Shown here piece after piece: positions 6,078-26,003 of a stretch of DNA of 64,000 bases. The notes under the pieces are model-generated. The model worked only from the letters and a program-made list of their open reading frames with translations. It ran no database searches and was not told the origin of the DNA. The position numbers and the translations under genes are program-made. The stretch is from NCBI GenBank assembly GCA_937974565.1, contig CALJWL010000028.1, forward strand, positions 1 to 64,000, written 5' to 3'. This DNA is from an uncultured Arenicella sp. Its GTDB lineage: Bacteria; Pseudomonadota; Gammaproteobacteria; Arenicellales; Arenicellaceae. Each line of letters opens with the position of its first letter. Positions within the stretch are counted from its first letter, which is position 1.

Positions 6078-8303
6078 CTAGTTAATCAACAACTCAGGGA
6101 AACCTAATACGGTCCACCCCAAAATCACGTCCAGATCACTAGGGTTGTCTTGCGCGTAGTCTTGCTTTGCCTTAGTGACTGCGTCACCTAACCTCTCGCC
6201 ATTGGCAAGTCGCTCGAACACCCGTCGGGCAAGTTGGCGTTCGGCATTAGAGCTGGTTAGTGTGCTGGCCCCCATAACAGCCACCGCTCCTCGGTTCCCC
6301 TCCATCATAAAACGGTGCCCCATGCTGTCTTCATTAGGGCTGACGTAGTAGGCATTCCAACACCCCCATTGGGTCACGATGGTGGGTTTTCCTTGATTAT
6401 TTAAATTCGCAGCGTCAGGCCCGGTAAATAGCCCGTTAAAACTCCATTGATTGGTGCTGCTGTGACCAAAAAAAGCAGTCAATGTGGTGCCTTGATTTAT
6501 CTGATCACGCACCATTTGGCGCGCTGCGCTGTTGCCCAGCTCATCAACGTACGCTTTGTGTATTTGGAAGTTTTTCAGATAATCGGCTTCAATTTCATCA
6601 GCATCATCGTCAAAGTCGTATTGTTGTACTTGGTCATAGCCATCAGCGACCAGCAATGCGGTGCCAGCGTAATCGCGATTAATATAGTCGTTGCGCTTGG
6701 CTAACAACGTTTCTAATTGACTCGTTGTGCGTACAGGCAAGCGAGCTATCGGCAAATCAGGCACGTTGTCGTCATCAAGGTCCACGTATTTAGCATCCGC
6801 CGGTGCGAAAGTAATATTATTACCCGTTGCCGCGTAAATACTTGGGATGAAACTGGTAGCATCTTGATTCTCAAATTGACGGTAGTCGTACACGTCACCA
6901 CCCACTAATAACACATAATCGGTGCCTCGATTAGCATGCGCGTACTGGATATACTTGCGTATCGCTTGTGGGTCAAATAGGTGATGTCCAAACTGGGCGT
7001 AAATGCTTTCCACATCCACAATCGCGACACTGCCCATCTCACTTTGCAGCTCGGTGGCTAAGGCTTCCAGTGCATTATTGCCATTGAGGCCAATAAAGTC
7101 GGGGTGGCTAATGATTAAATACTTAGCGTTGCCACTGGTAATATCACCCTCTAAGGGTAAGGGCGAGGGTTCGGCTGAGTACAAAGCGTCACTGGCAGCA
7201 ACGTAATACTTGGCAAGTTGGCCAGTGCCGCCTAGCTCCACGCGGCAAGTGTTGCGACGGCAACGACTGCGGACGTTAGTAATCTCGGTTACGCCATTGG
7301 CGTCTTCTCGCATGACCACAACATCTAAGGCTTCAACGCCGTTTTGCTTGGCATTGGGTGTAAAGCCTTGCACTCGAAATTGCTGTTTCCTTGACTCGAA
7401 GTTAAGTACGTTACCTTTGGCCATAAAGCGCCGTGGATAGATCATCTCTACCTTGTTTACATTCACGGCATCAAACGCAAAACCGGTGTCCATTGGCAAC
7501 GTAATTTTGACCTGATTGGCGCCGGTAACAGCACCAGAAAGAGGTGCGCTTAACTGTTTGGCTTGCAAACCGTCAAATTTGCCAGAGACCAACTCCTGAC
7601 CATTTAACGCCACTTTCACATGATGATCATCGCCAGAACCAGGCAGGTCGGTCGCCCCCCAAACATCCACATTCATCTTGGCACCGGTAAGTCCATCGTT
7701 ACCGCCTGGAGCCACTTCATCCAACGTAATAGTAATGGTCTCACTCATTGTCTGCCCCACCGCCACCATACGCTTGGCGTACCACGGGTCGTTCACGTCC
7801 GGTGACGTGAATGAATAATTGGCTTGTGGCGCAAACGACTCAAACGCCAAATAGCTATTAGCAAATGGGATGCGTGGACTGATGGTCGACGCTTCTTCAT
7901 TTATCTTAAATTGCGTTGCAAGTTGCCCTGAACCGAGACTTAACGTGTAAACGTTCGTATCGGTATACAACGTATCTACCTGAGTGGCGATAAAGCGGAT
8001 GGACGAACCAGCACCAAACACTGGGCCACCGATCACTTGTATCGGAACCGCATGGCCTTGACTTGCCAGTGAAAGCTCGCTGGTGTCGATGCCCGCCAAA
8101 TCACTGCCATTATTACGCAGCGACTCATAGCTCACTTCGTGAATGCCTGCGTATGTGGTTTTTAAATTGATCAGAGCATTGGCTGAAAGAGCCATAGAAC
8201 TAAACGTCAAAGTACTAAACGTCAAAGTACTAAAAGCCAAAGCGTTGAGTGCTGATGAGTCTCTGTAAGACATCAGCGAAAAGAGCGACTGAAATGTGTT
8301 CAT
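6078..8303 (-). CDS. C25 (gingipain-like) cysteine peptidase, secreted
   Basis: A 741-residue exported protein. The C-terminal half, roughly from YLIISHPDF onward, has the C25 caspase-like fold: VLLVGGDVYDYR, the His motif FFGHSS (His about 614) and the Cys motif TQWGCWN (Cys about 648). The 34-residue spacing fits the gingipain His/Cys pair. It ends GWTVLGFPELLIN, the position where related peptidases often have a GDP.L ending. The N-terminal half is beta-rich, with a predicted signal peptide around residues 20-43 that contains a short repeat. Its ATG overlaps the stop of the giant repeat protein by 4 bp (8300-8303), so translation is probably coupled. Processing or anchoring of the neighbouring surface protein is an inference. 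Confidence 0.88.
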   Translation of the reverse strand: MNTFQSLFSLMSYRDSSALNALAFSTLTFSTLTFSSMALSANALINLKTTYAGIHEVSYESLRNNGSDLAGIDTSELSLASQGHAVPIQVIGGPVFGAGSSIRFIATQVDTLYTDTNVYTLSLGSGQLATQFKINEEASTISPRIPFANSYLAFESFAPQANYSFTSPDVNDPWYAKRMVAVGQTMSETITITLDEVAPGGNDGLTGAKMNVDVWGATDLPGSGDDHHVKVALNGQELVSGKFDGLQAKQLSAPLSGAVTGANQVKITLPMDTGFAFDAVNVNKVEMIYPRRFMAKGNVLNFESRKQQFRVQGFTPNAKQNGVEALDVVVMREDANGVTEITNVRSRCRRNTCRVELGGTGQLAKYYVAASDALYSAEPSPLPLEGDITSGNAKYLIISHPDFIGLNGNNALEALATELQSEMGSVAIVDVESIYAQFGHHLFDPQAIRKYIQYAHANRGTDYVLLVGGDVYDYRQFENQDATSFIPSIYAATGNNITFAPADAKYVDLDDDNVPDLPIARLPVRTTSQLETLLAKRNDYINRDYAGTALLVADGYDQVQQYDFDDDADEIEADYLKNFQIHKAYVDELGNSAARQMVRDQINQGTTLTAFFGHSSTNQWSFNGLFTGPDAANLNNQGKPTIVTQWGCWNAYYVSPNEDSMGHRFMMEGNRGAVAVMGASTLTSSNAERQLARRVFERLANGERLGDAVTKAKQDYAQDNPSDLDVILGWTVLGFPELLIN
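8200..8244. repeat. 15-bp tandem repeat in the C25 signal peptide
   Basis: Two perfect copies of CTAAACGTCAAAGTA (8200-8214, 8215-8229) and one diverged copy (8230-8244). On the coding strand each unit adds about five residues (TLTFS) to the hydrophobic core of the signal peptide. Copy-number change would lengthen or shorten the core in frame. Confidence 0.85.
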
Positions 8304-11300
8304 GCGGCTTCCTCCGTTAAATCGTTAACCTGAGTAGGTGCTAACGGCTCACCATTATTGGGCACCGAAGACTGACGCAGCGCACGCTGTATCAATTCCC
8401 GAATACGTCGATCTTGTTGCTGTTCTTTTAACCGCTTACGTTTCACTTTTTTGGTCTCACGTTCAGCGCGTTCGGCCCCCCAATCAATGCTGTGACGCTC
8501 AGACATTACACCGTAAGGTTGGCCTAAAACAAACGGCCCGTGCAGAGTCTCTTTACCTTGAAAATCAATATCACTTAACGCGAATACTGTGGCATCGCTT
8601 GGTGCCGTAAAAATGTACGATTGCGCGTGTACCGAGTCACCTTGGCCGATGATTAGCTGGTCGTTCAAGCGTTCCCAATCGCCCTCAATCAAGGCGTAGA
8701 GATAGAAACCTAAGTTTGCAACTTCCGTCTGCGTCTGCCATTTAAAAGCCACCGTATCACCTTGTTCCTGCGCTAAGAACGCCCCTAACGATATAGGATT
8801 AGTGACAACCGGCTCATAACCAAAATCACTGGTGCCGTCTGTCACTGGGTCGGGATTAGCGCCCACTGAATCAAGATCCACAACGTAGCCAGTGTCGTCT
8901 TTACTGGTGTTGTCACGGTTATCAGTTAAGCCGTTCGGTGAATCTGTGTGTTCAAAACCGCTCAGAACATTATCGTCGTCGGTTACCACTACAGTGTAAA
9001 TACCATCAGGCAAATTCGTAAATTCAAAATTACCATTGATATCGGTGTCTGTGGTTTGAATCACATTACCGTCTTGATCTCGCAACTCTATGGTCACACC
9101 CTCAAAACGACCAGCTTCCACCAACATACCATCACCATTGGTATCAGGCCAAACGGTTCCTCTGATCGTGTTGTTGTCATTACTGGAGTAGCCAAAATCC
9201 TGATCCACATTAGAAGGCTCCGTTGGCGTCAACGTAACAGTACTAACCGAATCACCGACATTGGGACTGTCTGGGTCAACTGAGTTTTCCCAACCACTTC
9301 CACCGTTAGGCAGACTGTCGGTTAAGACCACCACACGGTAGTCTGTGCCGGCATCTATGCCTGTGTTTGACGTGCCCAAACCAGTGAATAGATAGTTACC
9401 GTTTTCATCGGTGGTTTCGCTGGCAATCAACACATCATCGGTGTTACCAATAATGCCATCAGGCCCTGGACCAAATAGTTGCACGACCACGCCTTCAATT
9501 CCTTCACCTGGCTCTGGCAAGCCTGAATTATTTGCATCAAAGAATATCGTATCACCAATCGAACCGTCACCGTCGGTGTTAGAAGGTTCAACGTAACCAA
9601 AATCTTGCTCGTCATTCACCGCTGGCGTTGCTATACCCACACCTAAATCGTCCACAAATGAGAGATTAGGTGTGATTGGCGTAAACGTGCCTGGAGCGGC
9701 CGGGTCATCGCTGTCGACGGTTTGCTCCAAACCGCTCAACACGTTACTTTGATCTGTAACTAACACAAAGTAATCACCATCAGGTAAGCCGGTAAATTCA
9801 TAACGGCCAGTTGGGTCGGTAATCGTGGTTCCAATCACTGGATCGTCCACAGGATTATAAACACCATCCCCGTTATCTCGAATTAAGCTCACAGTCACAC
9901 TGGGGATTGGGCCTTCAGCATTGTCACTTCCATCGCCAACCCCTTGCGGCCCATTTCCGTCTTCGTCATTGTCTCGCCACACAGTACCGCTGATTGAGTT
10001 GTTAACCGAATCGTTAGGTACATAACCAAAATCCGCATCCAAGTTCACCGGATCGTCAGTGGTGAGTAAGACATAAGTTACACCATCGGCTGCGCTAGGT
10101 TCACTATTGCCATCACGCACGTCGGGGTCACCCAAACCACTTTCTGAAAGCATATACTCCGGCGGAATGCCCGATTGCACGGTCACAATGTAAGTTTCAT
10201 TGAGGGGCAAATCAGTGAATAAGTACTTGCCATTTTCATCCGTGGTCGTGGTAATGGCTACGCCTGAACCTGCCCCCAAATCGACACTCGGCGCTGGTTG
10301 AATGCTAATAGTGATGTTCGGCAGACCTGTTTCGCCAGGGTCTTGCAAACCATTGTCGTTAGAGTCCACCCAAATTGTATCACCCAAGGACCCAGCCGGT
10401 GGCACGTAACCGAAATCCGCCGTCAAATGTTCCTCACCAGGGCTAAGCACGATTGGCGCTGAAGTGTGATCTAAACGCCCCACAGAACCCGGTGTTAGGC
10501 CTTCATCGTAGGTTTGCACAAATCCCGTTGGCACTGTGACGGAATCCACTTGCGTGATATAGACCCTGCCAGGAGTTAGTCTTGGAAACAGGTATTCACC
10601 GTTAGGTCCCGTGATTGCAGAGACCACAGGTATGGTCAATTCAACACCGTCAATAATGCCATTACCATTGGTGTCTTCTAACAAGTTAACCGTGACGCCG
10701 GCAATACCATCTTCATTAGCGTCTTGTATACCATCCATATCGAAATCCAACCACACGTAGTTGCCGATACTGCCGCCCTCGGCGAAACCGAAGTCGTTGG
10801 TGTCATCCACACTGCCCATGGGTGGGAAAGCAAACTCGCCATTAACACCGTCGTCACCACCTTGGTCCGTATCATCTTGATCCGACGTACCGCCACCCAC
10901 GGTTGTGGAGTCGGTATTCTGTGGATTGATATCAAAGGTGTATATTGGGATCAAATGCTCTGGTGTTGTTGCCACATTCAACGCAACCGTATGCGATGGT
11001 TCATCGCCACCGTTACCGTAAGTGATCGTCGCGATGCCATCAAAATCTTCGTCCAAATTCAAGTTATCAAAGCGATACACTCCGCCAAATTCGGTGGTAT
11101 CCACCAACTCAATTGTGCTGCCATCGGGGTATTCAATGGTGAACTCAACCATCACATTGTCAATGCCAGGTTCTGTGTCTGGGTCATATAAACCGTTGCC
11201 ATTTAGGTCTTCCCACAACACATCACCCACCGAACCAGGCTCTACGTAGTAGCCGAAATCTGCGGTGAGGTTGTCACCAAGAGTGGCATCCACCGTATAG

Positions 11301-14300
11301 GACTCGGTTTTAGAGTGATTATCAGCGCGTTGATCAGCCCCTTCAGAATGCCAATACCCAGTAAGGATGTCGTCCTGATCAGTCACTTTTACGACGTAGT
11401 TATCGGCTGGTAAATTTGCAAAGAGATAATTACCGTCAGCGCCAAATTCGCTAACATCAACAGCATTCGTTGTAACGGTTTGTCCCATCAATGGCTCGTT
11501 AAAATCAACTTCACCATTACCATCTAAATCCCGAAAAATTTCGACGGTCACCCCAGCTATCGGCGTTTCGTCATCGTCGGTTCCCGCTATTGCGTCCAAG
11601 CCGTTGGCTTCGTACACACCATCGGCATCACGATCTAACCAGACCAAATTGCCCACATCAACTGGCGCATTAGCGGAGTAACCAAAATCTTGGCCACGAT
11701 TGATATTGTTCGGGCCATCTTCATCCGCATTACCGTCTACGGCTGACAGGTCAACGACCGATTCATTATCATTGCCGCCATCCGGGTCAACTGAGTTACT
11801 GGTGCCTTGCAATGGACCATTCGCATTGAAGTTATTAGCGTCTACCTCAACGCCATACACCGACTCTGGATTTAAGCCCGTAAACAGGTATTGACCGTTT
11901 TGATTAGTAACTTGCGAACCGGCTTGGAGTTCTGGCGTGCCATCGCCGTCGGTGTCAAGCAACAAATTAACCAACACGCCCTCGATCAACGTATCCTCAT
12001 CGTCTTGGGCGCCAATATTATCGCCGTTATCTAAGAAAATAGTGTCTCCAATACTTGCCGTTTGTACCGCTGGAGGGTAACTAAAATCCTGCTCTCGGTC
12101 ATCCGGCGTTGTATTCGATAAACCAACAAGCGCACTGTTATTGCCATCACCTTCAGGATCATGAGTCGGCGATTCACTTACGTAATTTGGCAAAGTGCTG
12201 GCGTCTAGCGTGACGGTATATTCACGGCTTGCGCCGGCGGCATCTAACGGCAGGTTGATGAATAAATACTCACCATTTTCATCCGTTACCGTGCTAATTG
12301 GACTACCAGCTCCAGCACCGATGTCCACACCCGCTGGTGGTGTTAGGCTAATGCTCACACCTGCTAGTCCAGGTTCAGCCCCTTGAGTAGTTTGATTACC
12401 ACCGGAGACATCAACATCAAACCAAATCGTGTCGCCAATGCTGCCGACCACATCGGCCGGCGGCACAATAACCGGCGGGTAACCAAAATCTTGCCCTAGA
12501 TTTTGACCGTTCTCTCCATCAGGGTCGTTAACGCCGTCTTCCACACCTAAGCTACCGTTATTGAGATTAACTAAAGAAGCGTTATTGCCGTCGCCCTCAG
12601 GGTCGCCGGTTGGTGTACTCGCGTAACCCGATGGCAAGGTACTGCTATCGACCAACACGCTGTAACTCGCCAGTGGATCTAAGCCAGTAAACAGGTACGC
12701 GCCATCGGTATTAGTGGTTTGGGTGGCTAAGAGTTCTCCATTATCGTCGAACAAGCGAACCACTACATCGGCAAACAAAGGCTCATTGACATCACTACCA
12801 TCTCCTGCGCCAAATGGCCCATTGCCATCACTGTCTGTATCACCCCAAATAGTGTCACCAATGACACCAGAGCCAGCATTACCAATAATCACTGGGTAAC
12901 TAAAATCTTGATTTCGATTCGCTGGCACCGAGGCCGTCAAACTAATAGGGTCACTGAGATCATTCAGTGTGTTAACGTCGTTTTCTATTCCTCCGCCTTG
13001 AGGTAAGTAGGTGCTAGCGGCACTAAAACCCGCCGGCAATGTGGTGTCATCTACGCCAATAATATAAGTTGTGAGTGGCAAACCAGTGAACAGGTACCTA
13101 CCATTACCGTCAGTAGTAGTACTAACAAGGGCATCATTAACATCAATGATGCTGTCTTGATTGAGGTCGTCGGGTCCCGCCACGCCGTCTTCATCGACAA
13201 AAAGGTGGACCACCACGTTAGCTAATCCAGGTTCATTGGCTTGCGTACTTTGATCCCCACCTGAACCGTCTAAATCACCCCATACGGTATCACCAATGCT
13301 GCCTATCGGCCCGTCGTCCACGTTTTCTGAATCATCACTGGTGTAACCGAAATCTTGTTCACGGTCGTCGCCCGCCAACGCCGGCACAGCACTCATATTA
13401 GGCGTGCCGGAGGCACCATTATGATCATAAGTGGGGGTCAAATTCGCTAACACGCTATCAGTGTCGGTAATACTAACGATGTAATCTTCACCAAGAGGTA
13501 AGCCTTCGAATAAGTATTGTCCGTTTTCATCGGTGATGTCAGTGGCAATAATCGGCTCACCAGCGTCAATAAAACTGTTGCCATTAATATCCGCAATCAA
13601 CGCAACGGATACACCCTTAATAAAAGGCTCACCATCATCGGACTGCGCATCGTTACCCTGACCGATTGATGGGTTATTGATGCCGTCAATTGAGTCAATT
13701 AACGGACCGCTGCCATCACTGTCAGCATCCAACCAAACGGTGTCACCGATACTGCCAAGATCGCTTAGTGTGTTAGGCTGATAGCCGAAATCAGCATTGA
13801 TGAACACATCACCAACTGATAACACAATGGCTGAACTAGAGCTGTTGTCACTGGCTTGCCCAGCTTGCGCTGTAAGTCTATCCGCAGCAAAATGATCGGG
13901 GTCACCTGTTTGGCTGAACAAAGCCGCATCAAGCACGTCATGACTGGCTGCAACGCTGTCGGTGACGGTAACCACGTAGGCACCCACGGGCAAGTCATCA
14001 AAAAGATAGCGACCGTTTGCGTCCGTTAATTGGCCTGGGTTGGGGGCATAAGGTGCATCAAACACACCATCGCCATCTGGATCAGTAAACAAACTGACTT
14101 CCACGCCCGCTACCGGCACCTCACTCATCTCCTGAACGCCATTACCATTAGCGTCAATCCATACGCGGTCTCCCAGTGCCGCTAAACCATTATTATTATT
14201 AACTTCGTCTGTCGTATTCCAGTTATAGCCAAAATCCGCCGTCCGATTATCTTCACCGTCATCCAAGGTAATCGGATACCCCATGCCAGCATGGTCTTTA

Positions 14301-14713
14301 TTACCAAAGTCGCCATCATCATCCACATTATCAACATCAGCTCCATCGACGGTATTAGTAAAAATCGTAGTCTGAGTTAAATTGCTTGGCAAACTTGCAT
14401 CTTGAACATCAACAATATAATCATTAGCCACCAAGTCGCTAAACAGATATCCTCCATTAGCATCCGTCACCGTGGTAGCAATGACTGTCCCGGCAGCGTC
14501 TTTTAACTCTATGACAATGTTTGAAATACCGGATTCGCCCGCGTCTTGTTCTCCGTTGGAGTTTTCATCCAGCCACACATAGTTGCCAATAGAGCCGACT
14601 TGCATGGGCACAAAACCAAAGTCAACCGTGCTGTCTGTGCTGTCATCCAATTGTGGGTTAGGCAAGTTATCATTATTGCCACTCTCGCCCACTGGCTCAG
14701 CCCCCACCAACAA
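8300..14713 (-). CDS. Giant SdrD-B-repeat surface protein, C-terminal part (downstream of frameshift)
   Basis: The open frame of 2,137 codons begins only at a TTG inside a repeat domain. It has no signal peptide of its own, and its sense reading continues upstream to the G7 run at 14794-14800, so it is best read as the second half of the 14509-24537 gene. It carries about fourteen SdrD B-type domains of roughly 100-150 residues. Each opens like GSIGDTVWLD.D.NG.QD..E and ends near DFGY; the Asp/Asn loops resemble calcium-binding loops. The last 190 residues are different: a beta domain (ISLGAFLAQEQGD...WQTQTEVANLGFYLY) and then a very basic, Arg/Lys-rich helical tail. The stop overlaps the start of the C25 peptidase. 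Confidence 0.85.
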   Translation of the reverse strand: MLVGAEPVGESGNNDNLPNPQLDDSTDSTVDFGFVPMQVGSIGNYVWLDENSNGEQDAGESGISNIVIELKDAAGTVIATTVTDANGGYLFSDLVANDYIVDVQDASLPSNLTQTTIFTNTVDGADVDNVDDDGDFGNKDHAGMGYPITLDDGEDNRTADFGYNWNTTDEVNNNNGLAALGDRVWIDANGNGVQEMSEVPVAGVEVSLFTDPDGDGVFDAPYAPNPGQLTDANGRYLFDDLPVGAYVVTVTDSVAASHDVLDAALFSQTGDPDHFAADRLTAQAGQASDNSSSSAIVLSVGDVFINADFGYQPNTLSDLGSIGDTVWLDADSDGSGPLIDSIDGINNPSIGQGNDAQSDDGEPFIKGVSVALIADINGNSFIDAGEPIIATDITDENGQYLFEGLPLGEDYIVSITDTDSVLANLTPTYDHNGASGTPNMSAVPALAGDDREQDFGYTSDDSENVDDGPIGSIGDTVWGDLDGSGGDQSTQANEPGLANVVVHLFVDEDGVAGPDDLNQDSIIDVNDALVSTTTDGNGRYLFTGLPLTTYIIGVDDTTLPAGFSAASTYLPQGGGIENDVNTLNDLSDPISLTASVPANRNQDFSYPVIIGNAGSGVIGDTIWGDTDSDGNGPFGAGDGSDVNEPLFADVVVRLFDDNGELLATQTTNTDGAYLFTGLDPLASYSVLVDSSTLPSGYASTPTGDPEGDGNNASLVNLNNGSLGVEDGVNDPDGENGQNLGQDFGYPPVIVPPADVVGSIGDTIWFDVDVSGGNQTTQGAEPGLAGVSISLTPPAGVDIGAGAGSPISTVTDENGEYLFINLPLDAAGASREYTVTLDASTLPNYVSESPTHDPEGDGNNSALVGLSNTTPDDREQDFSYPPAVQTASIGDTIFLDNGDNIGAQDDEDTLIEGVLVNLLLDTDGDGTPELQAGSQVTNQNGQYLFTGLNPESVYGVEVDANNFNANGPLQGTSNSVDPDGGNDNESVVDLSAVDGNADEDGPNNINRGQDFGYSANAPVDVGNLVWLDRDADGVYEANGLDAIAGTDDDETPIAGVTVEIFRDLDGNGEVDFNEPLMGQTVTTNAVDVSEFGADGNYLFANLPADNYVVKVTDQDDILTGYWHSEGADQRADNHSKTESYTVDATLGDNLTADFGYYVEPGSVGDVLWEDLNGNGLYDPDTEPGIDNVMVEFTIEYPDGSTIELVDTTEFGGVYRFDNLNLDEDFDGIATITYGNGGDEPSHTVALNVATTPEHLIPIYTFDINPQNTDSTTVGGGTSDQDDTDQGGDDGVNGEFAFPPMGSVDDTNDFGFAEGGSIGNYVWLDFDMDGIQDANEDGIAGVTVNLLEDTNGNGIIDGVELTIPVVSAITGPNGEYLFPRLTPGRVYITQVDSVTVPTGFVQTYDEGLTPGSVGRLDHTSAPIVLSPGEEHLTADFGYVPPAGSLGDTIWVDSNDNGLQDPGETGLPNITISIQPAPSVDLGAGSGVAITTTTDENGKYLFTDLPLNETYIVTVQSGIPPEYMLSESGLGDPDVRDGNSEPSAADGVTYVLLTTDDPVNLDADFGYVPNDSVNNSISGTVWRDNDEDGNGPQGVGDGSDNAEGPIPSVTVSLIRDNGDGVYNPVDDPVIGTTITDPTGRYEFTGLPDGDYFVLVTDQSNVLSGLEQTVDSDDPAAPGTFTPITPNLSFVDDLGVGIATPAVNDEQDFGYVEPSNTDGDGSIGDTIFFDANNSGLPEPGEGIEGVVVQLFGPGPDGIIGNTDDVLIASETTDENGNYLFTGLGTSNTGIDAGTDYRVVVLTDSLPNGGSGWENSVDPDSPNVGDSVSTVTLTPTEPSNVDQDFGYSSNDNNTIRGTVWPDTNGDGMLVEAGRFEGVTIELRDQDGNVIQTTDTDINGNFEFTNLPDGIYTVVVTDDDNVLSGFEHTDSPNGLTDNRDNTSKDDTGYVVDLDSVGANPDPVTDGTSDFGYEPVVTNPISLGAFLAQEQGDTVAFKWQTQTEVANLGFYLYALIEGDWERLNDQLIIGQGDSVHAQSYIFTAPSDATVFALSDIDFQGKETLHGPFVLGQPYGVMSERHSIDWGAERAERETKKVKRKRLKEQQQDRRIRELIQRALRQSSVPNNGEPLAPTQVNDLTEEAA

Positions 14714-17700
14714 TTGAATATCCGAACTGGAGACACCACCAGCGACTCGCGTATTAATGCCATTTTCATCACTGTCATCGTCGTCTTGCGTGTCCCCCCC
14801 TCAGGAGCGGACGAAGTTAAACCAACTAAAGGCCCGTTGGCAACAAAATTGGATTCGGGTATGTGAACAAAATACGTGTCCGGCGTTAACAGGGTAAATA
14901 GATAGTGACCCTGTGAGTCTGTTAACTGAGTTGCCACTGGCGCATCTGTGCCAGCAAGATCACCACGGCGATAAAGTTCTACCGTGACGCCATTAATGCC
15001 CACTTCGCTACCATTGAGTATGCCATCGTTAGCGTCACCATTGCCCACACCATTATCAAGCCAAACGGTATTACCTATCGCAACGGACTGCACAAAACCA
15101 AAGTCCACGGTGAGATCGCTGCTCTGATCGTCAAACTGGTTAATGCCACTGGGGTCTACCTCAGCCACACCGTTGGCATCTAACTCGCCATTGGGTGTGC
15201 TGTTCGCGACTAAGGCGATGACGCCACTTTCCCAAGTGCCGTGGACAGTCACACGATTGAGGTCAAGGTTGGAATCAAGGTTACGGGTATCCACCGTGGC
15301 GTTTTGCACTGGGCTAGGTGCAAACACAACACCAGGTTCAACACGAATAATATAATCTCCAGCGGGCAAACCACTGAAGTTATAAGAGCCGTCTGGCACG
15401 GTAACAGCACCCGTGGGCCCATTCCAACTGTTGCTGGTAACCACACTGTTGTTCGCGCCTGATTGGTCGGCGGTATAAACACCATTAGTGTCAACAATCA
15501 CCGGTCGACCGGTTGACGTAAATAGCGACACAATGGCCCCATTGATACCCAACTCGTCGGCTTGTTGCACGCCATCGCCGTCGGTCGTGTCGACCACGGC
15601 ATTCTGATTGTCGTCTTCAAACACAACGGAGCCTAATGACACCGGTTGAAAGAAACCGAAGTCTAACCGCATATCACCATTGGTTTCAGCGGCATCGTCT
15701 TGCGCCGCACCGCCAGAGCCCGCTGTGTCGGTTTCTGGGTTAATTTCAGCACCGGCGGCCAGGTTCACGATGGATGATACAACTTCTGTTCCTATGCCCG
15801 CTGTTTGTAAACCGTTATCATCTTCATCAACGCCGGTGTTATCGGTATTCGGTGTCGTGCTAATGTCAGCCGAAGAACTCGGGAATTCATTAAGAGCATT
15901 GCCCACAGTGAAATTAGTAAGCGGTATGCTAACTTGATAATCGTCGCTCACTAAGTTTTGGAAATAGTAATTGCCGTCACCGTCAGTCAACGTACCCCCG
16001 ACAGCATCATCAAGCGTGCCTAACACGCCATCCGCCCCGACTGGAATTTCAACGCCACTGGCCGTAAACAACCGCACCCTCACATTCGCAATACCGGTTT
16101 CGCCTACGTTTTGCATGCCATCATTATTGACGTCATTGAAGACCGTTGATCCCAAGCTAACCGGCGCGTAAAAGCCTAAATCTAGGCGCATGTCGCCACT
16201 GCTCTCGTTAGCGTTATCTAAAGCATCACCGCCCGATCCTGCCGCGTTAGTTTCTACTGCCGTTTCAGCACCGGCGGTTAAGTTAATAGTCGGCGTAACC
16301 ACCGCAAAACCACTGCCGCCCGCTTGAATGCCATTGTCGTCTTCATCAATACCTGAAGCATCGGTATTGGCCGTCGTAGTAATATCGGTTGAAGAAGTAC
16401 TCGCCGCAACCAGTGCGCCACCGCCAACGAAGTTGCTTACGGGAACACGAACTTGATAATCACCACTCACCAAATTTTGGAAATGATAGTTACCGTTACC
16501 GTCGGTTAACACACCACCAAGGGCGTCGTCAGCACTACCCAAGATCCCATCAGGACCAACGGGTATCTCAACTCCTGTCGAACTAAATAATTGCACCGTT
16601 ACATTCTCGATACCACTCTCACCGGCTTCGTGCAGGCCGTTGTTATTAAGATCGCCAAACACGGTAGAACCCAAACTAACAGGGGCATAAAAGCCCAGAT
16701 CCAAACGCATGTCGCCATTGTCGTCGTCGACGTCATCTTGCGCATTACCGCCTGAGCCACCGACATTCGTTTCAAGACCGACTTCACCGTTATCTGTAAG
16801 CGTAACGATGGGAGTCAGCACCTGCGTGCCTGAACCTGCGACCTGAAGACCGTTGTCATCTTCATCAACGCCAGCGGCATCGGTATTAGGCGTAGTGGAA
16901 ATGTCCGTTGAAGAACTGGCCAACACCTGCAATGCACCACCGGTGGTAAAATTACTGATCGGTAAACGTACTTGATAATCACCTGGCGGTAGGCTTTGAA
17001 AGAAATAGTTGCCACTGGCATCCGTCAACATACCGCCGGAAGCGTCATCAATCGTGCCTAAAATGCCGTCTGATCCAACCAACACTTCGGCCCCAGCCGC
17101 GTTCAATAATTCAACCACAACATTAGCGATACCTAACTCGCCAGCCGCTTGCTGACCATCATTATTGATGTCATTAAATACAGTGGACCCCAGACTCACC
17201 GGTGCAAAGAAGCCAAAGTCCAATCGCATGTCACCACTGGTCTCCGCACTGTCGTCCTGCACATTACCACCAGACCCTCCAGCATCCGTTTCCGCATTGG
17301 TTTCGGCATTGGCGGTTAAGTTAATCACTGGCGACACCACTTCGGTACCAAAACCACCGGCCTGAATACCATTATCGTCTTCGTCTAAACCGGTTGCGTC
17401 TGTACTCGTTGTGCTGACGATATCAGAGGAAGAGCCCGTGTTAACCATCAACGCACCGCCACCGGTGAAATTGCTGATGGGAATACGCACTTGATAATCG
17501 CCCGTGACTAAATTTTGAAAATGATAATTGCCGTTACCGTCAGTCACCACACCTCCAAGAGCATCGTCGAGACTGCCAAGTATGCCGTCAGGCCCTACGG
17601 GTATCTCTACACCGGAGTCAGTAAATAATTGCACAACCACATTGGCAATGCCAACTTCAGTGGCATCATGCATGGCATTATTATTAACATCTGCGAACAC

Positions 17701-20700
17701 AGTAGAACCAACACTCACAGGCGTGTAAAAACCCAAATCAAGTCGCATATCACCGCTGTTTTCATCGGCATTATCCAAGGCTTCACCGCCCGATCCTCCT
17801 AAATCCGTTTCAACATTAGCTTCAGCTCCGGCGGTTAAGTTAATAATAGGAGTGGTAACGATGGTGCCACTGCCACCGGCCTGCAAACCATTATCATCTT
17901 CATCGACCCCACTGTTATCAGTATTTGGCGTGGTAACAATGTCGCTAGAAGAGGTAGGTAAGCCTTGCAAAGCACCGGTCACTGCAAAATTGCTTATCGG
18001 CACGCGTACTTGATAGTCACCACTGACCAAGTTCTGAAAATGATAATTTCCGTTTGAATCGGTTTGTACACCGCCTAAAGTATCATCCGCCGTGCCTAAA
18101 ATACCGTCTGGGCCAACAGGAATTTCAGCTCCGCTATTGGCAAATAACTGAACCACCACGTTTTGTACACCACTTTCACCCAGTTCATGAAGGCCATTAT
18201 TATCAGCATCATTAAATACCGTAGAACCAAGGCTGACCGGATCATAGAATCCGAAATCCAAACGCATATCGCCATTGGCTTCATTGGCATCGTCTTGAGC
18301 ATTACCGCCAGAACCACCCACATCTGTTTCTGGCGCTGTTTCCGCTCCCGCTGTGAGATTAATGATTGGCGACTCTACCTGAGTTCCTGACCCATTAGGT
18401 TGCAATCCATTATCATCTTCATCTATGCCTGAAGCGTCAGTACTTGCCGTGGTCGCAATATCCGTTGAGGAGCTAGGCAAATTGTTCAAACCGTTACCCA
18501 CTGAAAAATTAGCATCAGGAATTCGCACACGATAATCTCCTGGGGGTAACCCATCAAAATAATAATTACCGTTTGCATCGGTTAACACGCCTCCGGCACC
18601 GTCGTCAGATGAGCCGAGCATGCCATCGGCACCAACCAACACTTCACCACCAGCGCCGTCGAACAACTGAACCACCACATTACCCAAACCCGTTTCAGAT
18701 GAGTCTTGTATGGCGTTGTTATTGATGTCAGAAAACACCGTTGAACCTAGACTAACGGTCTGGAAGAAACCAAAGTCCAAACGCATATCGCCGTTGTTTT
18801 CATTGCCGTTATCTAAAGCGTCACCACCAGAACTTCCGTTATTGGTTTCAGCGCCTGTCTCTGCACCTGCGGTCAAATTGATGATAGGTGAGACAACTTG
18901 AGTACCGGGGCCACCCGCTTGTAGGCCGTTATCGTCTTCATCAACACCAGAGGCATCTGTGTTGGGTGTACTAACAATGTCTGTTGAAGACCCTAGATAA
19001 CTAGCTAATGCGTTACCCGTATCGAAGTTACTGACGGGTATGCGAACCTCGTAGTCGCCCCCCGTTAGGTTTTGAAAATGATAGTTGCCATTAATGTTGG
19101 TCGTGACACCACCGATAGCGTCGTCTAAGGTTCCTAATATGCCGTCAGGCCCGACTGGCACTTCGGCATTCGTGTTATCGAACAATTGCACCACCACATT
19201 AGCCAAGCCACGTTCACCGGCGTCATGCAAACCGTTATTATTGGCATCAGCAAAAACCGTTGACCCCAACGATACAGGAGCATAAAAGCCAAAATCCAGG
19301 CGCATATCTCCACTGTTTTCATCGGCGTTATCCAATGCATCACCGCCGCTGAGACCAACGTTACTCTCAGCAGCGGTTTCCGCACCTGCGGTCAACGTAA
19401 TGGTGGGTGACACCACAGCTGTACCGCTTCCCCCTGGTTGTAAACCATTGTCGTCTTCATCCACGCCACTGCCATTGGTATTCGCAGTTGTCGTCAAATC
19501 AGTTGAAGATGTACCCATATTCTCCAGAGCATTAGCACCCGTGAAGTTACTCGACGGTATTCGCACTTCATAATCACCACTGACTAAATTTTGAAAGTGA
19601 TAGTGACCACTGCCATTGGTAAACATGCCACCGACAGCGTCATCCGCTGTGCCTAAAATACCATCTGCCCCTACGAGGACTTCCGCCCCAGCTGAAGTAA
19701 ACAGCTGAATATTCACGTTGGCAATCCCGGTCTCAGTTGGGTCCTGAACGCCATTATTATTCGCGTCATTAAACACCGTAGACCCTAGGCTAACAGGATC
19801 ATAGAAGCCGAAATCCAAACGCATATCGCCATTATTTTCAATAGCGTTATCTTGCGCATCACCGCCCGATCCACCGAGGTTGGTTTCAAGACCCGTTTCA
19901 GCACCAGCCGTTAGATTGATAATCGGTGATACCACGGCACTCGCACTGCCACCGACCTGTAGACCATTGTCATCTTCATCCACTGCGCTGCCGTCGGTAT
20001 TTGGTGTAGTCACAATATCGGTTGACGAACTTGGGGTTGCCGCCAAGCCATTGCCCGTTGCAAAGTTGCTAACAGGCAAACGCACTTGATAGTCACCCGG
20101 TGGCAGTCCGTCAAAATAATAGTTACCGTTTGCACTCGTCAACACGCCGCCAGTACTGTCATCCAAGGTTCCTAGCATACCGTCAGGCCCAACTTCGATC
20201 TCAATGCCCAAATCATTGAATAGCCGCACGTTGACCCCAATAAGGCCTGACTCACCAGAGTCTTGCGTGCCATTATTATTTACATCATTGAATACCGTTG
20301 AACCCAAACTAACGGCTTGAAAGAAGCCAAAATCAAGACGCATATCACCATTACTTTCGTTGGTATTGTCCAAGATGTCACCACCTGACCCACCAACGTT
20401 CGTCTCAACGGCATTTTCATTACCGGCGGTCAGATTAACAATGGGCGACACCACTTGTGTTCCAGGGCCTCCTATTTGTAATCCATTGTCATCCTCATCA
20501 ATGCCAGTAGCATCAGTGTTTGCGGTACTTGGGATATCCGTAGAGGAACCTTGGTAAAGTTGCAGTGCATTACCAACAGCAAAGTTACTGGCTGGAATTC
20601 GAACCTCATAATCACCACTTACCAAGTTTTGAAAGTGGTAATTTCCACTGCTATCTGTGCTAATGCCGCCTAGAGCGTCGTCGGCGTTACCCAAAATACC

Positions 20701-23700
20701 ATCTGGACCTACCGGTACCTCTACCCCAGTAGCGCTAAATAATTGCACCACCACATTGGCTAAACCACTTTCGCCAGCGTCATGAATTGCATTGTTGTTA
20801 AGATCACCAAATACCGTAGACCCCAAGCTAACTGGCGCATAAAAACCAAGATCAAGACGCATGTCACCGCTGCTTTCATCAGCATTATCCAGTGCATCGC
20901 CGCCGGACCCTCCTGCGTTGGTTTCTACCGCTGTTTCAGCTCCGGCGGTTAAGTTAATGATTGGAGTAACAACAATCGTAGCCGCCCCCCCAGTTTGTAA
21001 ACCATTATCGTCTTCATCAACGCCAGTTGCGTCGGTATTTGTAGAGCTTGCAATGTCCGTAGACGAGGTGTTCAAATCATTTAGCGCCCCGGTGACAGCT
21101 GCAAAATTACTGACAGGCACTCGAACCTCATAATCACCACTCACCAAATTTTGAAAGTGGTAATTTCCAGCCCCATCGGTCATCATTCCGCCCACCGAGT
21201 CATCCGCCGTACCCAAAATGCCATCGGGCCCCACTGGCACTTCTACGCCAACACTGGTAAAAAGTTGAACCAGCACATTCTCGACACCAGGTTCTCCAGC
21301 ATCCTGCGTACCATTATTATTGAGATCGCTAAATACAGTGGAACCAAGGCTCACAGGAGCATAAAAGCCAAAGTCCAGGCGCATATCGCCATTATCATCA
21401 TTCGCATTATCTTGCGCATCACCACCGGAACCACCAAGGTTAGTTTCGGTTGCGGTTTCAGTCCCATCCGCCAGGTTAATCATTGGTGATACCACGGCAG
21501 TGGCACTGCCCGCGGTTTGTATCCCATTATCGTCTTCATCGACGCCCGTTGCGTCGGTGTTTGCAGTGGTTGCAATATCGGTTGACGAGCTTGGCGTGGT
21601 TGCTAACGCACCACTTGCCATAAAATTGCTGACTGGAATACGCACTTGATAATTGCCATCCAAAAGGTCTTGGAAGAAATAATTACCATTAACGTCCGTC
21701 AACATACCGCCACTTGAATCATCGGCATTACCGAGTATGCCATCCGCCCCGACCTGAATTTCTACCCCACTGTCGTTAAACACTTGGACTCTGACATTAG
21801 GAATGCCTAATTCGCCAGCATCTTGGATACCATTATTGTTCAGGTCACCAAAGACTGTTGAACCAAGTGAAACACTGGGGGGCGCAGTATTATTAATCAC
21901 AACAGTTGAGTTCGGCCGAATAAAGAAGCCAAAATCCAGACTGTGATTATTATGTCCCGCTAGGCCGCTGCTGTAATTGATTGTGGCCACACCAACGTCA
22001 TCAAATGCATCACTATCACGCACGTCAATCTGCGAATCATTACTGGCATTGCCTTCTGCATTGATAGGACTAAGAACGTAACCGGTGGGCGCACTGGGGA
22101 TGGTTACGGTGTAGGCGGTTTGTGGGTTGACTTGGAATAAATAGTTTCCATCACCCGAGGTCGTAATCATTGTTGGTGAGCCGCCGGCCACTGGGGTTAA
22201 GACCACCTCAACGCCATTAAGGCCAGGTTCACCGGGGTCTTGAATGCCATCTTGGTCAAAATCATCCCAAACACGGTTACCAATTTGATTTGGTGCTTGA
22301 TCACACAAAATCTCCACGTCACCCTGGCCATTGGCTTTGCCAAAACGGCCACCACCACCAAAACCAACGTCAAACTCAGTTCCATTCCACAGTTGAAAAC
22401 CAGCAACTCGCGCGCCGTTGGCAACGGTATTATTCCATTGAAAGCCGCCGGAGAAGATCGTTGTTTCAGGATCCATGGCGGAATAAACCGTTTCACCACT
22501 ACCTGGCAATACCGCCAACCCTCCTGTGGATGCCTCACGGTGTGCGTTTATACCTGAACGCGCATCAAAGAACGAAGCACCACCTGGGCCAGAATTCGCT
22601 GGCCCACTACCACTAACACCCCCACAGCTACCGTTATTTTCCAGTATGAAACTGCCGGTTCCATCTTCGCAAGCCTTAAGGACATCTCCCCCGATTTGAA
22701 TACCGATGGCACCACCGCCAGGGAAAGCGAAACTTGTGATTGCACCGGGATTATCCGGCTGCCTGTTCAAACCACCAATCTGAAAACCACTGCGATCGGC
22801 AAACCCGAGAATAAGGTGGTCGTCATCACCAAATTCCAAATCAGTTAACATAGGTGTGGGGCGCTGACCTAAGATGCCGTTATAAAGCGCGTCATTATAG
22901 GTGTTACGCCAAGGCATCCAAATATCGGTATTAACGCCCGCATCGTTGGCGCCCTCTTTGCTGTAGTTAAGAGGCACCTCCAATTCCTGCGTAAAGGTTC
23001 CCATGGGGTCGGAAGTATTAAATGAAAAAACATAGGCCACTAAATTACGAGCAATGTTTAACGTTAGGCCGGCTCCAGCAACGCCGGCATCCGCCTGGTT
23101 CTCCCCCGTACAAACGGCACCCAAATAACCAGTATCACCTCGCAATTTGAGTGCCCAAGGTCGCAATACACCATCGGTACAACTCGGCACACCCGCCGTA
23201 CCCAGCACATCAAATTCTTGTGCCGCAGAAGGGGCAACGCCGCCAGCAACATCTAGGCTCACCAGCGACCGATTGTTTAAGTTAACCATCCACAAGGTGG
23301 CGTTATCATCAGAAATATCAATATCACCAATACCAATTACACCCGCTTGCCCATAGGCTGCCGCATCGGTATTTTGCTCTACTACATTGGCAGGTAAACC
23401 ACGCGCTGCATTTGACCCGATGGTGCCAAAATCAATACCCAATGCACCGACATCCACAAAATTACTCGGGGATGGCGTTCCTGCTGGGTCAGAAATAGCG
23501 TAAATGCCAGCAATACCTAGAGAACCAAGGCCTGAATGTCGCTTCACGACAGCCGAAGCATACAAAACATCCGTATCTCGTTGGTATGCCAACCCCCATG
23601 TTGACCCAATTTGACTGGCTTGTGCCACAGTGGCAGCATTGCCAGTACGGTCGTAGTTAACGCTAGCCATCACCGATTGCGCCCCAGATTGATCACCATT

Positions 23701-24537
23701 AATGTAAATGGGTGTCACTACTTTAGGGTTGTCTTGGCAAAAACCAACAGCATCAATGAAACCCACACTATTGCCCGTAAGATTATTATCATCAATGAAC
23801 AAGGTGGTTGAACCATTATCCGCTCCAACAAAGCTCGGTTGAAGACCAAAGAGTGAGTCAACAAACTCCAAGCGCCATGGCCCACTGCAACTCGGGGTCA
23901 ATTCATAGCTGCCAATGGCACCCACCGATGGAGACCCACTGCCATCACGCGAGGTGGTGGTGCCACACACGACATTGTCGGCGCCATAGGCGGTGATCGT
24001 AACACCAGCCAGACCAGATTCTCCTAAGTTGAAAGCACCATTGCTGTTTTGATCCGCGTAGACTGAGCCGGATATCGGCGCAGCGGTAACCGGAGTAATA
24101 GTCCCCCCTGAAAGCGACAGTGTGCCTGCAACTTGTGGTGAAGAACCATCGACGGTATAGGTTATAGTCCAACCGGTTCCTGGAGACGTCTCGGTAATCG
24201 TGTAATCGCCAAACGGCAAACCAGTAAACGTATCGGTAGCACCGTCAACCAAGGTATCATTAATAGAGGTAAACCCAGCTGGCCCTGTAACGGTATAGGA
24301 AAATGCCATGCTCGGCACAGGCGTTCGACCATTCCAGTCAACTAATTTAGTCACGCTCAAGGAGCCGGTGGCCAGCGCCAATGTTGATGACAGCATGCAA
24401 ACCATTGCTGCAACAATAAGTGCTAACGCTCTTAGGTAACTTGGCACTGGGCCTGTGTGTGCGCGTTCTAACAGTGCCGGTTTTATGCTTTTAGTTAAAC
24501 GAGCTGTTACACACAACCTATTTTGTTTGCGTCCCAT
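14509..24537 (-). CDS. Giant SdrD-B-repeat surface protein, N-terminal part (frameshifted at residue 3248)
   Basis: A 3,342-codon open frame starting at ATG 24537, with AAGGGG about 8 bp upstream. An extended signal peptide has its hydrophobic core at about residues 35-56, followed by a prealbumin-like domain (SLSVTKLVDWNG...FGDYTITETSPG) and one B-type domain. A region of about 400 residues with propeller-like features precedes another B-type domain. From residue 889 come twelve tandem repeats of 173 residues (VSLGSTVF.D.NNNG ... DEDDNGLQ ... GDMRLDFGF), then two diverged domains. The frame leaves the repeat sequence at the G7 run; the last 94 residues are frameshift sequence. It is probably a surface adhesin or fibrous coat protein of the calcium-binding SdrD-like type. 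The export route is not visible. Confidence 0.88.
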   Translation of the reverse strand: MGRKQNRLCVTARLTKSIKPALLERAHTGPVPSYLRALALIVAAMVCMLSSTLALATGSLSVTKLVDWNGRTPVPSMAFSYTVTGPAGFTSINDTLVDGATDTFTGLPFGDYTITETSPGTGWTITYTVDGSSPQVAGTLSLSGGTITPVTAAPISGSVYADQNSNGAFNLGESGLAGVTITAYGADNVVCGTTTSRDGSGSPSVGAIGSYELTPSCSGPWRLEFVDSLFGLQPSFVGADNGSTTLFIDDNNLTGNSVGFIDAVGFCQDNPKVVTPIYINGDQSGAQSVMASVNYDRTGNAATVAQASQIGSTWGLAYQRDTDVLYASAVVKRHSGLGSLGIAGIYAISDPAGTPSPSNFVDVGALGIDFGTIGSNAARGLPANVVEQNTDAAAYGQAGVIGIGDIDISDDNATLWMVNLNNRSLVSLDVAGGVAPSAAQEFDVLGTAGVPSCTDGVLRPWALKLRGDTGYLGAVCTGENQADAGVAGAGLTLNIARNLVAYVFSFNTSDPMGTFTQELEVPLNYSKEGANDAGVNTDIWMPWRNTYNDALYNGILGQRPTPMLTDLEFGDDDHLILGFADRSGFQIGGLNRQPDNPGAITSFAFPGGGAIGIQIGGDVLKACEDGTGSFILENNGSCGGVSGSGPANSGPGGASFFDARSGINAHREASTGGLAVLPGSGETVYSAMDPETTIFSGGFQWNNTVANGARVAGFQLWNGTEFDVGFGGGGRFGKANGQGDVEILCDQAPNQIGNRVWDDFDQDGIQDPGEPGLNGVEVVLTPVAGGSPTMITTSGDGNYLFQVNPQTAYTVTIPSAPTGYVLSPINAEGNASNDSQIDVRDSDAFDDVGVATINYSSGLAGHNNHSLDFGFFIRPNSTVVINNTAPPSVSLGSTVFGDLNNNGIQDAGELGIPNVRVQVFNDSGVEIQVGADGILGNADDSSGGMLTDVNGNYFFQDLLDGNYQVRIPVSNFMASGALATTPSSSTDIATTANTDATGVDEDDNGIQTAGSATAVVSPMINLADGTETATETNLGGSGGDAQDNANDDNGDMRLDFGFYAPVSLGSTVFSDLNNNGTQDAGEPGVENVLVQLFTSVGVEVPVGPDGILGTADDSVGGMMTDGAGNYHFQNLVSGDYEVRVPVSNFAAVTGALNDLNTSSTDIASSTNTDATGVDEDDNGLQTGGAATIVVTPIINLTAGAETAVETNAGGSGGDALDNADESSGDMRLDLGFYAPVSLGSTVFGDLNNNAIHDAGESGLANVVVQLFSATGVEVPVGPDGILGNADDALGGISTDSSGNYHFQNLVSGDYEVRIPASNFAVGNALQLYQGSSTDIPSTANTDATGIDEDDNGLQIGGPGTQVVSPIVNLTAGNENAVETNVGGSGGDILDNTNESNGDMRLDFGFFQAVSLGSTVFNDVNNNGTQDSGESGLIGVNVRLFNDLGIEIEVGPDGMLGTLDDSTGGVLTSANGNYYFDGLPPGDYQVRLPVSNFATGNGLAATPSSSTDIVTTPNTDGSAVDEDDNGLQVGGSASAVVSPIINLTAGAETGLETNLGGSGGDAQDNAIENNGDMRLDFGFYDPVSLGSTVFNDANNNGVQDPTETGIANVNIQLFTSAGAEVLVGADGILGTADDAVGGMFTNGSGHYHFQNLVSGDYEVRIPSSNFTGANALENMGTSSTDLTTTANTNGSGVDEDDNGLQPGGSGTAVVSPTITLTAGAETAAESNVGLSGGDALDNADENSGDMRLDFGFYAPVSLGSTVFADANNNGLHDAGERGLANVVVQLFDNTNAEVPVGPDGILGTLDDAIGGVTTNINGNYHFQNLTGGDYEVRIPVSNFDTGNALASYLGSSTDIVSTPNTDASGVDEDDNGLQAGGPGTQVVSPIINLTAGAETGAETNNGSSGGDALDNGNENNGDMRLDFGFFQTVSLGSTVFSDINNNAIQDSSETGLGNVVVQLFDGAGGEVLVGADGMLGSSDDGAGGVLTDANGNYYFDGLPPGDYRVRIPDANFSVGNGLNNLPSSSTDIATTASTDASGIDEDDNGLQPNGSGTQVESPIINLTAGAETAPETDVGGSGGNAQDDANEANGDMRLDFGFYDPVSLGSTVFNDADNNGLHELGESGVQNVVVQLFANSGAEIPVGPDGILGTADDTLGGVQTDSNGNYHFQNLVSGDYQVRVPISNFAVTGALQGLPTSSSDIVTTPNTDNSGVDEDDNGLQAGGSGTIVTTPIINLTAGAEANVETDLGGSGGEALDNADENSGDMRLDLGFYTPVSVGSTVFADVNNNAMHDATEVGIANVVVQLFTDSGVEIPVGPDGILGSLDDALGGVVTDGNGNYHFQNLVTGDYQVRIPISNFTGGGALMVNTGSSSDIVSTTSTDATGLDEDDNGIQAGGFGTEVVSPVINLTANAETNAETDAGGSGGNVQDDSAETSGDMRLDFGFFAPVSLGSTVFNDINNDGQQAAGELGIANVVVELLNAAGAEVLVGSDGILGTIDDASGGMLTDASGNYFFQSLPPGDYQVRLPISNFTTGGALQVLASSSTDISTTPNTDAAGVDEDDNGLQVAGSGTQVLTPIVTLTDNGEVGLETNVGGSGGNAQDDVDDDNGDMRLDLGFYAPVSLGSTVFGDLNNNGLHEAGESGIENVTVQLFSSTGVEIPVGPDGILGSADDALGGVLTDGNGNYHFQNLVSGDYQVRVPVSNFVGGGALVAASTSSTDITTTANTDASGIDEDDNGIQAGGSGFAVVTPTINLTAGAETAVETNAAGSGGDALDNANESSGDMRLDLGFYAPVSLGSTVFNDVNNDGMQNVGETGIANVRVRLFTASGVEIPVGADGVLGTLDDAVGGTLTDGDGNYYFQNLVSDDYQVSIPLTNFTVGNALNEFPSSSADISTTPNTDNTGVDEDDNGLQTAGIGTEVVSSIVNLAAGAEINPETDTAGSGGAAQDDAAETNGDMRLDFGFFQPVSLGSVVFEDDNQNAVVDTTDGDGVQQADELGINGAIVSLFTSTGRPVIVDTNGVYTADQSGANNSVVTSNSWNGPTGAVTVPDGSYNFSGLPAGDYIIRVEPGVVFAPSPVQNATVDTRNLDSNLDLNRVTVHGTWESGVIALVANSTPNGELDANGVAEVDPSGINQFDDQSSDLTVDFGFVQSVAIGNTVWLDNGVGNGDANDGILNGSEVGINGVTVELYRRGDLAGTDAPVATQLTDSQGHYLFTLLTPDTYFVHIPESNFVANGPLVGLTSSAPEGGTRKTTMTVMKMALIRESLVVSPVRIFNCWWGLSQWARVAIMITCLTHNWMTAQTARLTLVLCPCKSALLATMCGWMKTPTENKTRANPVFQTLS
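14794..14800 (-). other. G7 homopolymer at the frameshift joining two halves of the giant gene
   Basis: On the coding strand the upstream frame reads GAG GGG GGG ACA, giving the pattern G_GGG_GGG. After this run the upstream frame turns into non-repeat sequence and stops 94 codons later. The -1 frame continues directly as GDTQDDDDSDENG and on to DSTVDFGFVP, typical of the domain family. One extra G, or a -1 ribosomal slip on the run, would give a continuous product of about 5,412 residues. Confidence 0.88.
15643..21873 (-). repeat. Array of twelve 519-bp coding repeats
   Basis: Twelve consecutive copies of a 173-codon unit, measured from the VSLGSTVF motif of unit 1 (21873) to the same motif after unit 12 (15642): 6,231 bp, averaging 519 bp. 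The protein motifs DGILGTADD, GNYHFQNLVSGDYEVRIP, VDEDDNGLQ and GDMRLDFGF recur in register. Neighbouring units differ at many synonymous positions, so the array is not a fresh duplication. Confidence 0.93.
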
Positions 24538-25067: not shown

Positions 25068-26003
25068 TTATTGAGACTGGATTGACATCAAGCGCCAGTG
25101 ATTTGTCTCAGGCATAAGAATAAAAAAATACTTCTTGTAGCGCCTCATGGTTTCTGCGGCTGGGCGATAGGCGAATTCGGTGTCGTCTAAAACCATGGCT
25201 AATCGGCCTGACGGATCAGCTTTGAATCGTATTTTACGAATTTGGGTACTGTCGCCGTTTTTCTGCTCTAACAATGAGAGTTGACGTTGCGGTGCTTGTC
25301 CTTTGGTGAAACCACCGTCGTTTCGTAAACGCACCGAATACAAGTTCGATGAACGCGCATCACCGTAGTACAACTGCTTACCTTTGGGTGAATTGAACAC
25401 AGCCAAACTGAGCGCATCCACACCGTTAAAACGGCTTAAAACTTTGCCAGTGGTTAAGTCTAACTGATAAATAATGCCCGCCACCTGTGCTGGTGTGGAG
25501 TGTGCCACCGAGCTTACGTAAAGCGAATTGGTTTGACAATCAATTGCCAAACCGAGTGTCCCAAAGGGGTTTGATTGCGTTTGCTCTGCTGGTTTAGGCA
25601 GATCAACAAACACCTCAATATCACCGCTACCAGAATGGACCTTATAAATTCGATTGCGTTTGTCTAATGGATTGGTATCCAAAGCGATGCTGGGTATTGG
25701 CGCCACATAAATCGCACCTTGAGCATCACGAACGCTGCTACCAACATGCCCCGTGTTTTTCCAGCTTTCTTTTTGATACAACCGCCGTTGGCCTTGCAAT
25801 TCGCGAATTACAATGCCAGGTAATCTAGAAATACTGGTGTCAATTGCGACCGGTGTCTTTAGGTCCAGGTTTTGAATAAAGCGAGGCATGCCGGCACACG
25901 CATAAGCATCAATGTAAGGTCGAGTTTGGGCGGTTACGGTGGCGCATAAGCTCAGCCAAACGGTGGCTAAGAATGCGCTGACATGCCGATCAATACGCCT
26001 CAC
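25068..26003 (-). CDS. Exported propeller-like protein of unknown function
   Basis: Function unknown. The frame is open from an ATG at 26051, but I prefer GTG 26003. It overlaps the stop of the upstream gene as GTGA and puts a short basic n-region (RRIDRH) right before the hydrophobic core SAFLATVWLSLCATVTAQT of a signal peptide. The mature part of about 285 residues has repeated short segments such as IYVAPIPSIALDTNPLDKRNRIYKV, NSLYVSSVAH and KQLYYGDARSSNLYSVRL. These resemble blades of an SMP-30/NHL-type beta propeller. The overlap with the amine-oxidase-like gene suggests coupled translation and a joint role outside the cytoplasm. The propeller assignment rests on pattern only. Confidence 0.72.
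   Translation of the reverse strand: MRRIDRHVSAFLATVWLSLCATVTAQTRPYIDAYACAGMPRFIQNLDLKTPVAIDTSISRLPGIVIRELQGQRRLYQKESWKNTGHVGSSVRDAQGAIYVAPIPSIALDTNPLDKRNRIYKVHSGSGDIEVFVDLPKPAEQTQSNPFGTLGLAIDCQTNSLYVSSVAHSTPAQVAGIIYQLDLTTGKVLSRFNGVDALSLAVFNSPKGKQLYYGDARSSNLYSVRLRNDGGFTKGQAPQRQLSLLEQKNGDSTQIRKIRFKADPSGRLAMVLDDTEFAYRPAAETMRRYKKYFFILMPETNHWRLMSIQSQ

Follow-up and report, generated by a model that had tools for sequence, protein, structure and literature searches.

The giant gene and its change of frame

The window, a stretch of 64,000 nucleotides from an uncultured Arenicella sp. (assembly GCA_937974565.1, contig CALJWL010000028.1, positions 1 to 64,000), carries on its minus strand a giant gene that encodes a repetitive surface protein. 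About 60% of the way along this gene, the reading frame shifts by one base in a seven-G run (14794-14800, seven Cs on the plus strand). The upstream open reading frame (14509-24537, 3,342 codons) reads CCT GAG GGG GGG ACA CGC at this point, which places the run in the register G_GGG_GGG (the X_XXZ_ZZN form). The first ATG, GTG or TTG codon of the downstream frame (8300-14713) is the TTG at 14713. The features discussed below, all on the minus strand, are as follows.

14794..24537 (-): portion of the gene that precedes the run, 3,248 codons with an N-terminal signal-like region and SdrD B-like repeats (open reading frame, domains, ortholog L022)
14794..14800 (-): the G7 run where the frame shifts by one base (sequence, register, codon-model frame change)
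14509..14793 (-): out-of-frame tail of the upstream open reading frame, about 94 codons with no repeat resemblance (translation, ortholog alignment)
8300..14794 (-): portion of the gene after the run, 2,164 codons in the -1 frame, with more SdrD B-like repeats and a conserved C-terminal region (open reading frame, domains, ortholog)
14600..15123 (-): the single SdrD B-like domain cut by the break (Pfam PF17210)
20985..20991 (-): another G7 run within this gene, an internal control that is read through in frame 0 (sequence, codon model)

At the run, frame 0 translates as ...NGPLVGLTSSAPEGG and then as TRKTTMTV..., a stretch without repeat-like character, while the -1 frame, which has a TGA immediately before the run, translates as DTQDDDDSDENGINTRVAGG...STVDFGFVP followed by more SdrD B-like repeats. 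Joined across the run, the protein reads ...LTSSAPEGG and then DTQDDDDSDENG...STVDFGFVP, and repeat-type coding passes from the 3,342-codon frame to the -1 frame without loss and runs on to 8300. Both frames are open for about 300 nt around the site, which is single-copy, a search of the genome for a second copy having found none. The sequence-only reading had described a one-base frame change here and a slippery-type register; the former is confirmed by the sequence, by both open reading frames and by a codon-usage model, in which the coding frame changes at the 14794 run with positive scores on both sides, and the latter is right, the codons being GAG GGG GGG ACA.

The two halves match the SdrD_B family (PF17210) in 15 and 14 stretches, with 564.6 and 521.3 bits against a curated cut-off of 29.7, for a total of about 30 matches over the whole gene. 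It is in these many matches that the protein resembles the MSCRAMM-type SdrD B-like surface proteins, and the solved SdrD structure 4jdz gives a weak sequence match to its domain. It differs from them in that it belongs to a Gram-negative marine genus, is far longer and is followed by a Peptidase C25 gene, and it falls far below the cut-offs of the NCBIfam SdrC/SdrD models. A literature search on Arenicella adhesins or SdrD returned nothing relevant. The C-terminal region (8300-9400) scores 27 bits against TIGR04183, the T9SS sorting-domain model (cut-off 23), and this match, which is internal and lies in an SdrD-like stretch, probably reflects fold-level resemblance only.

The Peptidase C25 gene lies directly after the giant gene and overlaps its end by four bases (8300-8303), and the same order recurs in relatives. 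In the window and several relatives the two are separate adjacent genes, and at three other loci (L038, L040 and L044; relatives G004 and G005 and contig C39 of the window's own genome) the C-terminus of the surface protein and Peptidase C25 share one open frame; the two may be fused or tightly coupled. On the upstream side of the giant gene, two family-unassigned genes on the minus strand (25068-26051 and 26000-27904) overlap by about 50 bases, and since an equivalent overlapping pair of similar sizes is present in G001 (L023 550-3373), the overlap appears genuine rather than another frame break. The window's own genome (G000) has more giant SdrD-type open frames on contigs C39, C52 and C58 (1,834, 3,921 and 3,085 codons), with matches free of stops. 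The remaining genes in the window are ordinary.

The same site in related genomes

The sequence-only reading had proposed inspecting the same site in related genomes, and when this was done the gene was found in a single frame, lacking the G run, in each of three members of the genus, G013, G001 and G002. The closest comparison is with G013, of the same genus, where a genome search located an ortholog (L022) that is 81% identical in the N-terminal region and stays open in one frame for 2,949 codons, as far as the end of its contig. It aligns without gaps over the junction, TSSAPEGG being followed by DNQQDDNADENG, with 63% identity before and 71% after (E values of about 1e-47 and 6e-43), and this residue-for-residue alignment supports a continuity far beyond chance, in line with the earlier claim that the -1 frame carries the domain on without loss. 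In the tested piece of the ortholog, Pfam SdrD_B matches residues 2-109 and the junction falls at about residue 96/97; in the window, PF17210 matches the upstream half of the cut domain. Because the match in the ortholog runs across the junction, the break cuts one domain.

The ortholog's codons at the site are GAA GGT GGT GAT, with neither a G run nor a slippery heptamer. G001 (L023) has PTEGGDDTIDSDDNG, encoded by GAG GGT GGT GAC, and is likewise unbroken and without the run, as is G002 (L041). A distant Verrucomicrobiia MAG has a 5,113-codon open reading frame in which similar domains recur and which has no break at that point. A similar split in the relative G011 (L036) was rejected, as it lies at unread bases (X at both frame ends). 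At its other end, the open frame of L022 (1-1263) is about 400 codons longer upstream of the match to the N-terminus of the window protein, beginning DYGDAPD, an extension that the window protein lacks.

The downstream part also limits the age of any break. Its 2,164 codons contain zero further stops, and about 3% of single-base changes in this part would create one, such that about two stops are expected per 1% of neutral divergence; zero stops limits an untranslated period to about 1.5% neutral divergence (95%, Poisson). Against G013, the nearest ortholog, synonymous sites are saturated, which leaves pN as the only informative measure, and it is similar on the two sides of the site (0.12-0.25 before and 0.19-0.20 after). 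Given that there is no further stop downstream and that protein-level constraint is similar on both sides, the break is either very recent, if it is real, or absent altogether.

Origin of the frame change

We consider it very probable that the locus is ancestrally one continuous gene that encodes a repetitive surface protein of giant size (about 5,400 residues), and that its frame has been cut in one assembly by a single unprogrammed one-base slip. A scan of genome contigs turned up no second assembly of this species. As the gene of related species is unbroken and without the run, a sequencing slip or very recent mutation is the most likely explanation, and not a built-in frameshift switch. 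In the mechanism that we propose, a one-base slip within the G run would throw the giant gene out of frame and, if the slip is genuine, translation would stop about 94 codons past the run, yielding a protein without its second half. By our judgement, the chances are about even that the slip is a sequencing or assembly error, and it could, somewhat less probably, be a genuine and very recent mutation that arose in the sampled strain by replication slippage. By the practice published in PMC3711429, when homologs span a frame transition seen as a singleton, a sequencing error is expected and not a genuine indel, and at this site the three relatives and the Verrucomicrobiia MAG span the junction in a single frame. 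The window case is like the singleton frameshifted genes found by GeneTack (PMC3711429) in that one genome has a transition at a homopolymer while its homologs are unbroken, and nothing sets it apart from them, the size of the gene alone being unusual. In favor of a real mutation, genes elsewhere in the assembly stay intact across runs that are as long or longer. Systematic homopolymer miscounting was looked for and not seen: a general error of this type is not visible because in-gene runs of 7 and 8 elsewhere are read in frame and because the housekeeping genes of the window that were tested (e.g., carA, carB, rpsA, aroA, gyrA and ftsH) are essentially full length.

A second explanation is reversible phase variation, in which slipped-strand mispairing would change the length of the G run and turn the second half of the surface protein ON or OFF within the population. 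Surface proteins are typical phase-variable genes (PMC3711429), the downstream frame is preserved, and seven is the lower cut-off used for poly-G tracts in Campylobacter (PMC6321876). In Bordetella, one tract seemed unstable only above 8 bases, and a C6 tract in bvgS is known to vary (PMC1891110); together the published cut-offs put G7 near the lower limit for unstable tracts (PMC6321876; PMC1891110). The window run is like the poly-G tracts of the phase-variable genes of Campylobacter and Neisseria in lying inside a surface-protein coding sequence, but it differs from them in being short and not conserved, the G run being missing from the three unbroken homologs in G013, G001 and G002, and in residing in a genome without enrichment of long tracts, where runs of at least 9 number 7, the expectation under Markov models trained on the window being 1.6-9.3. 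The position of the run, so far along the gene, also counts against a switch, as do the many runs of 7-8 that lie in genes without breaking them. We examined 46 G/C runs of at least 7 (44 from sampled stretches of the genome and two in the window), and by the codon-usage model about 30 are in open frames with the same coding frame on both sides (19 of length 7 and 11 of length 8, a few with weak scores), the run at 14794 being the only well-supported frame break. As many in-gene runs are unbroken and long tracts are not enriched, nothing points to a set of poly-G switches having evolved, and we regard reversible phase variation at this site as distinctly unlikely.

Programmed FRAMESHIFTING, a -1 ribosomal slip at G_GGG_GGG that would give products of 3,342 and 5,412 residues, is very unlikely. 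The heptamer is in the right register and the two frames overlap openly around it, and in its X_XXZ_ZZN register the site is like those of dnaX and IS-element -1 frameshifting. It differs from these in being a weak motif that is not conserved and for which no stimulator was found. The decisive point is conservation, as in the relatives a single frame without a slippery heptamer encodes the full protein. The 114 nt that follow the site also fold no better than shuffled sequences (z = +0.32, pseudoknot-free model) and, with 60-nt windows at spacers of 4-10 nt, the folding is only among the strongest 29-35% of the gene's windows (again pseudoknot-free); a downstream RNA structure as stimulator thus found no support, nothing rising above background in pseudoknot-free folding. 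G_GGG_GGG is absent from the efficient motifs of E. coli, not being among the 21 that a systematic study chose for its genome search, and of that set the related G_GGG_GGU ranked last when no stimulator was present, at 0.018% (PMC4066793). Moreover, the break lies inside a domain and not at a domain edge. The earlier emphasis on a -1 slippery site is accordingly not supported, given single-frame relatives without the G run, no structure that stands out in pseudoknot-free folding and a motif outside the efficient bacterial ones.

That the downstream half is independently translated as its own gene is scarcely credible, as the sequence-only reading had already held: the frame is long and open with TTG and GTG codons from 14713 on, but its possible starts lie inside a domain, an internal start was rejected with no convincing Shine-Dalgarno sequence at any early position, the half has no secretion signal and the relatives read one frame.

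Implications for the locus

Three explanations had been put forward from the sequence, and they have fared differently. An assembly error stands and, together with a recent mutation, is best supported; the ON/OFF switch is without positive support; and programmed frameshifting has been set aside. We think it unlikely that a poly-G contingency switch has newly arisen here, or that a frameshift specific to the species operates, either of which would produce both a short and a full-length giant surface protein; a switch, if true, would mean that a free-living marine lineage has a giant surface protein subject to phase variation. The case shows that chance alone can create a perfect slippery heptamer, and that a look at the homologous position in relatives is a quick way to decide. 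Its use is chiefly practical: we suggest annotating the locus as a single giant gene for an SdrD-type surface protein, with a break in its frame, and not as two proteins or as a case of recoding.
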